This document shows, in pieces, positions 17,184-19,756 of a stretch of DNA of 64,000 nt. Source of the DNA: Affinundibacterium baiyunense (GTDB lineage: Bacteria; Pseudomonadota; Gammaproteobacteria; Burkholderiales; Burkholderiaceae_D); the NCBI RefSeq assembly GCF_018139645.1, contig NZ_JAGSPM010000002.1, positions 310,001-374,000 of the forward strand, in the 5' to 3' direction. Position numbers and translations under genes: made by a program. The notes beneath the pieces are model-generated. The model was not told the origin of the DNA and did no database searches. It saw only the letters and a program-made list of their open reading frames with translations. Position 1 is the stretch's first letter. Every line of letters begins with the position of its first letter.

Positions 17184-17300
17184 TTATTTCACAAATTCTG
17201 TCAGCTTCTTTTTTCTGACGGGTAAATACAATTTGCCTTGGTGTACAAAAGAACAGAGTTCGACAAGTGTTTCGTGATTGTTCAAATAGTTCAAAGCAAA
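17184..17300 (-). pseudogene. Broken 3' fragment of the PD40 propeller gene
   Basis: The stretch 17196-17272 matches the 3' part of the intact PD40 gene at 18571-18648 at roughly 80 % of bases by eye. In translation it shares ELCSFVHQGKLY against EFCPFVHQGKLY. One base is missing just after the GKLY codons, shifting the frame so the proteins diverge. The fragment is on the same strand as the intact copy and lacks the rest of the gene. It is the scar of a duplication or of an insertion that split an older locus. The small ORF covering it (17184-17369) is probably not a real gene. Confidence 0.65.
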
Positions 17301-17390: not shown

Positions 17391-17726
17391 TTATTCGTCA
17401 ACCGCGAGAACTTCGGGAACGAAGCGTTTCAGCACATCAAGTTCCGAAGCTGATACTTTTGATACATTTAGAATCAACGATTGCAATCCTGGAATTTGAG
17501 CAATTCGTTCAAGCGCAAGGAAAGACAACAGTGAGGCGTCGAGTGCTATCTGTTGAACACCAACAAGCTCACAAAGGATTGCCGCGTCTGCATCCTCGAC
17601 TGTAACGTTCATCAGTGTTACTGCAAAATTTTCGGCATCCCAGCAGTATCCACCACCAAGGTCTTCGATCTTAGCAAGAAGGCGTTCGTTGTTTTCGGTA
17701 GTAGAGGTCGCGACAGTTTCTGTCAT
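17391..17726 (-). CDS. Hypothetical protein, downstream cassette-type gene
   Basis: 111 residues from the ATG at 17726 (MTETVATSTTENNERLLAKI). No signal peptide or membrane span. The C-terminal half is a run of short Leu/Ile-rich beta-alpha units (IALDASLLSFLALERIAQI, GLQSLILNVSKVSASEL), reminiscent of leucine-rich-repeat-like folds, but no named family is recognised. The ATG is only three bases beyond the R' box of the attC-like site at 17729-17808, the position typical of the next gene in an integron cassette array. No second attC is visible after its stop. A longer frame reaching 17753 would start inside the attC and is unlikely. Confidence 0.6.
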   Translation of the reverse strand: MTETVATSTTENNERLLAKIEDLGGGYCWDAENFAVTLMNVTVEDADAAILCELVGVQQIALDASLLSFLALERIAQIPGLQSLILNVSKVSASELDVLKRFVPEVLAVDE

Positions 17727-17728
17727 AA

Positions 17729-17808
17729 GGCGTAACGCAAAATTGAGCGGCACGCGCCTGCAAGTCCGTGGGGACGAAGTGGAGTGAACTCGAATGTTTT
17801 GTTATGCA
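17729..17808 (-). other. Integron-type attC recombination site
   Basis: On the minus strand, R'' reads GCATAAC (17807-17801) and R' reads GTTACGC (17736-17730), fitting RYYYAAC/GTTRRRY almost fully and complementary except for one base. Inside them AACATTCGAG and CTCAATTTT can pair except for one mismatch and one unpaired C, like the L''/L' boxes with their extrahelical base. A central GTCC/GGAC stem is visible. The stop codon of the upstream DUF4375 gene lies inside R'' and the next gene starts three bases after R', both hallmarks of cassettes. No integrase gene is in the window. Confidence 0.68.
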
Positions 17809-18350
17809 TATACAGATGCCTCTTTATTAGAGCGAACAAAGTTATGTAATAATTCCGCCAAATTATCCTCATACTTGTAAAATTCTTTATCAAGGTCATC
17901 TAATCCTGATTCATAATTCTCATCATCCTCATATTGCTCTAGTTGTTTCCATCTTGTTTCTCGGTCACTGGAAGGCATAGATTCGGGAAACCAGCTTAGT
18001 GCCTTTTCAAGTAGTTCCGTTGATTTATTGGCGCGTATTCTTCGCAAACCCTCTAGTATTTCGAGACAATGATCGCCTAGAGAGTTAAAGAATAACTGAT
18101 CAAAACCTCCATTGTGAACTTCGCCATCAAAGCACCACAACAAATATACAAGTCTCGCTTCTAGTCCGATTCGTTCTAAATACTCCGTGCTTCCATTACT
18201 TTCAGCGAATACAATCTGATGACAAGCATTAAAAACATCGTACGCTGGCTCATCATTTTCAAAAAAATCAGCGAATCTCAATCTTGATCTCCTCAATGCA
18301 CAACGTGTTTTCCGTGACAGTTCGTAGAATAAACCCGAAGCAGTTCGCAT
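17802..18350 (-). CDS. DUF4375 (DMP19-like) protein, probable gene cassette
   Basis: 182 residues. The core starting DGEVHNGGFDQLFFNSLGDH and continuing through EILEGLRRIRANKSTELLEK is the DUF4375/DMP19 pattern. Neisseria DMP19 is an acidic DNA-mimic protein. The C-terminal third here is also strongly acidic (QLEQYEDDENYESGLDDLDK). The basic N-terminal stretch (KTRCALRRSRLRF) is atypical and the true start may differ, since no Shine-Dalgarno sequence is seen. Local GC is about 32-38 % in sampled lines, well under the neighbours. Its TAA stop lies in the R'' box of the attC-like site, so it is best read as a laterally acquired integron cassette. Function unknown; DNA mimicry is inference. Confidence 0.75.
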   Translation of the reverse strand: MRTASGLFYELSRKTRCALRRSRLRFADFFENDEPAYDVFNACHQIVFAESNGSTEYLERIGLEARLVYLLWCFDGEVHNGGFDQLFFNSLGDHCLEILEGLRRIRANKSTELLEKALSWFPESMPSSDRETRWKQLEQYEDDENYESGLDDLDKEFYKYEDNLAELLHNFVRSNKEASVYA

Positions 18351-18508
18351 AAAAATTTCTTAAAACCCTTTTGTAGTAAGGATCTTCATGAATGTACTGC
18401 GTATTTAATTAGTGTTAAATTTTCTATGAAAACCGTCACTGTAATCATTTTGCATTCTACCAAGCTTCAAGATCGCGTCAAGGACGCGATTCGGTATAAG
18501 CACTATAT

Positions 18509-19432
18509 TTATCTCACCAGCGCTTTGTAGGAATAAGGATCAAAATCGACCACGTAAACATCCTCAATCATTCTGTCTGCTTCTTTTTTCTGGCGAGTGA
18601 AATACAATTTTCCTTGATGTACAAACGGACAGAACTCGGCGAATGTTGAGTTGATCGGTAAACCTAAATTGACTGGTTTTGACCATCGTCCTTTTTCATT
18701 GAAGCTGATGTAGAGATCTACCTCGCCATGGCCAGCGGTGTCAGAAGAAAAATAGATGAGATAGTCTTCATCAGGCGAGATAAATGGATTGGATTCTCTG
18801 AACTGCTCGGTGTTGATTGGTGCGCCTAGATTGACTGGTTTTTGGTATCTTCCATCAATTAGCTTGGCGACGAATAGATCAGAATTGCCAGCTTGGCTTT
18901 CATGGTCTTTCATAAAGTAGATGTTGCCATTGTTTGCGATAGATGCGTACGATTCTGAGGCTTGGGTATTGATCACATCACCCATGTGAAAAGCCTCGCT
19001 CCAGCCTATGGCGTTTCGTTTTACCGCCCAGATATCAAAATCTTTTTTTGGTTCTTGTTTGCTTGTTTGGTTTGCTGGATAGGCTGAATTGGTGTTCACA
19101 GGGCGGTTTGACTGAAATAGTACGGTTTGTCCATCGGGACTAAAGATAGGGTCGATGTCTTTCCATTCTCCCTTGTCAGTTGAGAATGGCGCGACTTTGG
19201 GTTGCGACCATTGACCGTTTTGAAGATGCGATTCCATGATCACGAGTTTTTCTCGTTTGCCTTGGGATTCTACCCATAATGCAGTCTTGCCATCAGGTGA
19301 GAGCGTAAAGCCGAATACACCGCCATTCGATATCAGACCGGGCTGGAACTTTTCGGGAAGCGCTTGCGCTGCGATAGCATGCGTAAAAATAAGCATCCAT
19401 AGATAGAATCCATATCGAACTAGTTTGATCAT
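18509..19432 (-). CDS. Exported PD40 beta-propeller (TolB-like) protein
   Basis: 307 residues from the ATG at 19432, chosen because GAGGTG lies just upstream and the signal peptide (YGFYLWMLIFTHAIAAQA) then sits at the N-terminus. The body is a run of PD40/WD40-like blades: FTLSPDGKTALWVESQGKRE, IDPIFSPDGQTVLFQSNR, ESYASIANNGNIYFMKD, ESNPFISPDEDYLIYFSSD, and the C-terminal FCPFVHQGKLYFTRQKK. No peptidase domain is attached, so it is probably a periplasmic binding or scaffold protein. A truncated copy of its 3' end lies at 17184-17300. The next gene on the plus strand is a penicillin-acylase family enzyme, divergently transcribed. Confidence 0.82.
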   Translation of the reverse strand: MIKLVRYGFYLWMLIFTHAIAAQALPEKFQPGLISNGGVFGFTLSPDGKTALWVESQGKREKLVIMESHLQNGQWSQPKVAPFSTDKGEWKDIDPIFSPDGQTVLFQSNRPVNTNSAYPANQTSKQEPKKDFDIWAVKRNAIGWSEAFHMGDVINTQASESYASIANNGNIYFMKDHESQAGNSDLFVAKLIDGRYQKPVNLGAPINTEQFRESNPFISPDEDYLIYFSSDTAGHGEVDLYISFNEKGRWSKPVNLGLPINSTFAEFCPFVHQGKLYFTRQKKEADRMIEDVYVVDFDPYSYKALVR

Positions 19433-19756
19433 GATGCACCTCGTTTCGCCTTGATTACGTGTTTCGGTTGAATGCCCTTGTTCAGTTTGTTTCCCGATCT
19501 GCTCAGTAACCTGCCCAGTCATCTTCTTTTTTTATCTATTTAGACTATCGCGTTACGCATGCGATGTACTTTATGCAGTTTGGGAACTTCATCTATCCTC
19601 GGTGAGTCTCTAACTTATTCGTGCTTCATCATGCAATGGCGGTAGTTAATTGAGACAAGACTGTTCTATGAGCTCGCCTTATTCTGCTGCATTGCATGTT
19701 AGCTGTGTTAGTCTTTCACGCAGAATATTTCTGCTTAACTTGAATACGGACAAGAT
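19433..19756. other. Divergent intergenic region, PD40 / acylase
   Basis: 324 bases without a gene. The first part encodes only the unlikely N-terminal extension of the PD40 frame (Gln/Thr/Glu-rich), with imperfect short repeats of a TTCAGTTTGTT / CAGTAACCTGCCCAG kind. Promoters for both genes must be here, but I see no convincing -35/-10 pair. Confidence 0.4.

Follow-up and report, generated by a model that had tools for sequence, protein, structure and literature searches.

A putative integrase-less integron platform with a predicted promoter and a DUF4375 first cassette in Affinundibacterium baiyunense

What is a single integron-type attC site doing at the end of an AT-rich gene, with host genes on both sides and no intact integrase beside it? 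A sequence-only reading of the window (the whole 64,000-nt stretch that was analysed, whose positions are used throughout) took the site for a lone, integrase-less cassette insertion with a DUF4375 gene that might serve in defence or immunity, and proposed folding of the bottom strand, a covariance-model search, a genome search for intI and further attC sites, and a comparison with relatives for an empty site. The analysis described here follows these proposals in the same genome (G000) and its relatives, and it points to a different kind of locus, a truncated integron platform that likely still receives cassettes.

The attC site and its gene cassette

The features of the cassette and its flanks are as follows.

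17730..17807, minus strand: attC site, 78 bp, from covariance model R1 (47.9 bits) and homology to an attC of G005
17736..18303, minus strand: gene cassette 1, with its 5' end at G^TTGTGCATTGAGGAG and its 3' end at R'
17802..18281, minus strand: DUF4375/DMP19-like gene, 159 aa, TTG start, from PF14300 and homologue lengths
17391..17726, minus strand: gene B, 111 aa, probable second cassette, ATG 3 bp after R'
18509..19522, minus strand: flanking PD40 gene (Pfam PD40), 95% identical in G011
17195..17271, minus strand: far flank, partial repeat of the PD40 tail, whose main copy is at 18570-18647

The boxes described in the sequence-only reading are all in place. R'' GCATAAC (17807-17801) and R' GTTACGC (17736-17730) lie on the minus strand with 64 bases between them, and L'' ATT[C]GAG pairs with L' CTCAAT, leaving one extra C in what we take to be the usual place of the extrahelical base. 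The stop codon of the DUF4375 gene, TAA, falls within R'', and the next ATG follows three bases past R', both as described. Covariance model R1 was built from 26 attC sites of the genus with the window site left out, its training set including a G005 site 85% identical to the window attC and all seven sites of contig C79 of G000; it scores the window attC at 47.9 bits (E 3e-9), the only match at E≤5 within the window. Across the whole of G000 the same site has E 2e-7 and is joint third among 15 matches at E≤1, and 66 of its 78 bases are identical to an attC in the complete integron of G005. A second box scanner gives the site 14.9, with 0 matches at 14 or more in ten shuffles (640 kb, one strand); since this scanner was written after integron attC sites had been seen, the covariance model is the better test. 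The first box scanner does not separate the site from shuffles (12.0 vs a shuffle top of 12.2), an Rfam search of the window returns zero matches, and a DNA search with the attC in G000 yields, besides itself, short matches only (best E 0.047). Single-strand DNA folding, the first of the proposed checks, does not set the site apart from shuffled sequence, with z values of 0.35 and 0.43 for the two strands, so the evidence for the attC consists of boxes and homology and not of free energy. By these sequence comparisons the window attC is confirmed as real, beyond chance. The locus has the make-up of a single attC lacking integrase, with one attC and no intact intI nearby; a CALIN under the IntegronFinder 2 default has at least two attC without intI, and the window has one attC match. 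The G011 allele of the locus has two attC matches, the second weak at E 0.046.

The protein encoded next to this site matches PF14300 at E 4.3e-29. Its 84 homologues at E≤0.001 include 35 of 159 aa, the 14 best among them, and because the best homologues share that length the start is probably the TTG at 18281, which is preceded by AGGAG; the longest open reading frame (to 18350) extends back into attI. The gene is AT-rich, as had been noticed, with 37.9% GC vs 45.6% and 46.1% in the flanks, a real but mild contrast. At 13 homologous loci in other organisms, a scored attC lies at the 3' end of the gene in six: L158, L161, L163 and L168 by both R1 and the box scanner, and L162 and L166 by the box scanner. 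L159 has an R'' box without a scored attC, and the other six show no scored attC at the 3' end by either method. Homologues with an attC end upstream have cassette starts of the form G^TTATGCAT-AAGGAG or a variant, and the window's G^TTGTGCATTGAGGAG is similar; therefore, the cassette spans 18303 to 17736. Judged by these comparisons, the DUF4375 gene is a true cassette gene, in agreement with the initial reading. The suggested role in defence or immunity is unsupported: with the two genes of the window array and two from G011, PADLOC returns zero matches (E≤0.1), and the DUF4375 protein matches solved chains only weakly (E 0.054 and 0.059). Plasmid records contain one weak match to DUF4375 and none to gene B. 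Elsewhere in G000, a weak DUF4375-like match (L002, C47:244805-245053; 39% identity, E 7e-5) lies 5-6 kb from an attC cluster.

A database search with gene B gives 24 proteins at E≤0.001, including its own entry, and there is no match at E≤1e-8 in 398 other genomes of the order. R1 finds no second attC match behind it in the window, and gene B is probably a second cassette without a detectable attC. Both G000 and G011 have a second, partial copy of the PD40 tail beyond the array; when copies from opposite sides are compared between the two genomes, they are 82-85% identical over 78 bp.

A truncated platform upstream of the cassette

The sequence directly upstream of the cassette contains the following features.

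18302..18492, minus strand: Pc-attI platform with type B attI, crossover G18304^T18303
18397..18412, minus strand: where the complete integron has its LexA-like box; degenerate in the window
18405..18506, plus strand: intI stub, aligning with residues 1-34 of the longest resident IntI frame
18454..18459, minus strand: -10 box TAGAAT of the predicted promoter Pc, 16-bp spacer to the -35 box
18476..18481, minus strand: -35 box of the predicted Pc, TTGACG, located within the intI stub

The stub is found by tblastn at 65% identity over 34 aa (E 4.8e-8), and its alignment score of 90 compares with a maximum of 41 in 300 shuffles. About 21 of the 34 aligned IntI residues run from the IntI ATG on; this ATG is lost in the stub. 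The reading direction of the stub leads away from the array, as that of intI does in integrons, and its end lies no more than 3 bases from the PD40 stop codon. A complete type B integron of G018 matches the DNA from stub to cassette with its 5' end, at 83% identity over 216 bp, and the window attI ends GGAAAACACG^TT. The platform profile R2 gives the window copy 130 bits, this copy being one of its 28 training rows. The predicted Pc matches 10 of 12 consensus bases, has a 16-bp spacer and points at the cassettes; by consensus match only, the scanned region holds 4 promoter-like sites vs a shuffle mean of 2.9. The LexA-like box reads CTAATTAAATACGCAG in the window vs CTGTACAAATATACAG in the complete integron, and a LexA role for this box is our presumption.

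Of the features of a complete integron, attI (by homology) and an attC cassette on the strand leading from intI are present, and in place of an intact adjoining intI there is only the short stub. By homology, the window site is a truncated integron platform composed of an intI stub, a predicted Pc and attI. The locus resembles a sedentary chromosomal integron in its attI, divergent intI, predicted promoter in the 5' end of intI, attC cassettes and G^TT crossover, and differs in that intI is only a stub and that several such platforms occur in one genome. Similar to CALINs and single attC sites lacking integrase, it carries an attC cassette without an adjoining integrase; unlike them, it retains attI and a predicted Pc.

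Insertion of cassettes at attG sites, which are neither attI nor attC, also places cassettes outside a main integron. The lone insertion of the sequence-only reading implies such an event, a single cassette in a non-integron secondary site, and the one detectable attC and the host genes flanking both sides would suit it. However, attI, the predicted Pc and the intI stub lie directly upstream of the cassette and a second gene follows R', and a lone insertion of this kind is very improbable.

The integrase-less character of the locus holds locally, where no intact intI adjoins, but not genome-wide: the proposed genome search finds an intact intI (465 bits) on contig C79 with seven attC sites alongside. 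This resident IntI is of type A, whereas the window attI is of type B, and no intact type B intI is detected in G000. Further R2 platform matches in this genome lie on C83 and C73, while C79:92842 and C47:207616 give weaker matches of 38.5 and 28 bits, respectively. Clusters of attC sites (L154-L157) are also present at C91:120.2-121.2 kb, C47:231.5-239.4 kb and C87:81.9-82.6 kb; the platform profile has no match in the stretches fetched around them, and they may be arrays with other attI types or true orphan arrays. Related complete integrons in G000, G006, G005 and G038 (L017, L096) adjoin a GroEL-like gene, recognised by eye. G011 keeps the GroEL-like flank, but its IntI has just 61.5% identity, which looks like a replacement of the integron core.

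Platforms and their cassettes in related genomes

For a wider comparison, 35 platforms were hand-picked from search matches and fetched. intI is complete or near-complete in 9 and absent as such in 26, the latter representing about 19 distinct places, with orthologues making up the remainder. The crossover is recognisable in 23 of the 26 integrase-less platforms, and the motif TTGAC[AGT]-16 bp-TAGAAT is exact in 17, as the best of a search close to the expected place. In 17 of the 26, intI homology starts 3-44 bp upstream of the -35 box, including 11 in which it starts 8-12 bp before it (three of these being one orthologous place); more than 100 bp of intI is kept in three (G011:C3a, G001:C23a and G001:C23b), and homology begins inside or downstream of Pc in the remaining six. 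The conserved left border could in part reflect lost homology upstream. A downstream same-strand attC match at E≤0.3 is present in 16 of 22 testable platforms, two of these sites being training sites and one weak (E 0.11); the other six have no match at this threshold. The best LexA-like box matches on average 7.3 of 8 bases where intI is complete or near-complete (n=9) and 5.6 where it is not (n=26); a score of about 5 may be noise level, because it is the best of ~80 positions (hand count).

At a cut-off of E≤1e-3, the profile built from 28 platforms yields 96 matches in 21 of the 43 genomes of the genus, with up to 13 per genome; these include the training copies and are counted regardless of intI. 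Searches for intI at E≤1e-40 in the 43 genomes give just 19 matches; these fall in 14 genomes, 12 of them over cut-off. An intI over cut-off is present in 11 of the 21 genomes with platforms and missing from the other 10, so reloading by the genome's own integrase cannot be current in those 10. In the family sample, 20 of 195 genomes, from 9 of 44 genera including the own genus, contain a platform match, many of them weak. Clustered Pc-attI platforms are found in G007 (G007:C61), G013 and G015 (L201, L203, L205, L207-L210), and no intI match at E≤1e-40 is found in these three genomes.

Comparison with relatives at the window locus itself reveals an exchange of content. In G011 the flanks are ~95% identical and the stub junction is common to both genomes, and the platform there has an attI of type A followed by two cassettes different from those of the window. 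The proposed search for an empty site thus leads to an occupied one, and no empty version of the locus was found among the relatives compared. G001 and G019 were considered as empty sites and rejected, with poor alignment beyond the PD40 gene. Between the window and G011 similarity fades ~90-100 bp before the crossover, with the attI type exchanged, and because the difference precedes the crossover by that distance the swap reflects at least in part homologous recombination. The same caveat applies to G000:C83 and G011:C3b, which share flanks and differ in attI type.

Other platforms have borders at the crossover itself. G011:C2b, G001:C28 and G019:C212 share a platform at 94-96% as far as +3 to +6 and have different first cassettes beyond; in G011:C2b and G001:C28 the next cassette behind the differing first one is again shared, at 93%. 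The C73 platform of G000 is also present in G011 (L216), G006 (L211) and G007:C29, and in each of the five pairs examined homology breaks off at the crossover and returns in the far flank. Similarity stops at +12/+13 between G011:C3a and G001:C23b and at +3 between G001:C1 and G018:C131. Such borders at the crossover favour site-specific recombination. G013 and G015 were tried as a no-integrase control and rejected, being 99-100% identical in the compared stretches. Judged from the aligned sequences, intI has been lost in place at one locus, where G018:C87 holds a whole intI and the orthologous G011:C3a and G001:C23b lack its 3' part. In addition, a cassette of the complete C79 integron of G000 is 89% identical to one at the integrase-less C3b platform of G011.

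Origin and possible refilling of the platforms

The window locus is most plausibly an integrase-less platform with attI and a predicted Pc, carrying DUF4375 as its first cassette, and it has likely been reloaded in trans. Integron platforms would lose intI and retain attI and the predicted promoter; intI would be reduced to a 5' stub, which may have been kept because the predicted promoter lies inside it. This promoter would transcribe the cassettes, and an IntI encoded elsewhere would act in trans to refill the platforms. Cassette contents likely differ between species because an integrase elsewhere refills these stations. Against reloading stand the mismatch between the type A IntI and the type B attI in G000, the exchange of attI type where the window and G011 differ, the 10 genomes with platforms but no intI over cut-off and the six testable platforms with no attC match; the presence of the 85% identical G005 site in the R1 training set also belongs on this side. 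A broader version, in which one trans-acting integrase serves many integrase-free chromosomal attI stations, each with its own cassette promoter, is put forward more tentatively, as a possibility that may well be wrong.

The platform might instead be a frozen relic, inert since intI was lost long ago, with the differences between species arising from differential deletion within a longer array before the loss or from homologous recombination of whole alleles between strains. The attI type swaps at the window locus and C83, the degenerate LexA-like box and the undetected type B intI would all fit a relic, as would the link between intI inactivation and more stable arrays described for Xanthomonas (PMC12444791, in the part available). 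However, at other loci the conservation of a shared truncated platform reaches the crossover and the cassettes beyond it differ, once with a shared cassette behind, and allele exchange alone is not expected to stop at the crossover, which counts against a relic; the promoter motif is also retained although the body of intI is gone. An inert relic is unlikely, if a serious alternative. Somewhat less probable is dispersal of the Pc-attI segment as a unit of its own, copied to new places that never held a whole integrase. Such a unit would account for the up to 13 platform matches per genome, some of them close together in G007:C61, G013 and G015, and for the recurrent start of intI homology 8-12 bp before the -35 box in 11 of 26 platforms, three of which represent one orthologous place. 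It accords poorly with the more than 100 bp of intI kept at G011:C3a, G001:C23a and G001:C23b, and with the locus that is intact in one species and truncated in others.

Loss of intI with later reloading in trans, the reading favoured here, can be set beside several published systems. The IntegronFinder 2.0 census counts 2961 CALINs and 2760 complete integrons, about equally common, and CALINs are proposed there to be degraded integrons; in the sections of that paper available here, the program detects no attI outside class 1 (PMC9024848). Available sections of a study of Xanthomonas describe inactivated or truncated intI, CALINs at conserved secondary loci, more stable arrays, and CALINs that can be mobilised in trans (PMC12444791). 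The truncated intI and the arrays at conserved secondary loci are shared with the platforms described here; unlike Xanthomonas, where inactivation goes with stable arrays, cassettes here differ from the attI crossover onward. Pieces of attI outside their usual place are also known from delta-attI cassettes of class 1 and 2 integrons, recombined by IntI1; in the available part of that report these pieces replace attC downstream of a gene (PMC12901181), whereas in the platforms described here attI stands at the head of the array, together with a predicted promoter. A search of titles and abstract openings within one literature library returned no description of dispersed integrase-less attI platforms.

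Integrase-less loci in this genus have kept attI as well as a predicted promoter, and at several of them it is at the attI crossover that the content changes. Since intact and truncated intI occur at one locus in different species, the origin of integrase-less arrays becomes testable. If the platforms are reloaded in trans, the integron would be a network and not a single locus, with docking sites that standard software overlooks. If one integrase does serve many stations, cassettes may be loaded and expressed at several places simultaneously.
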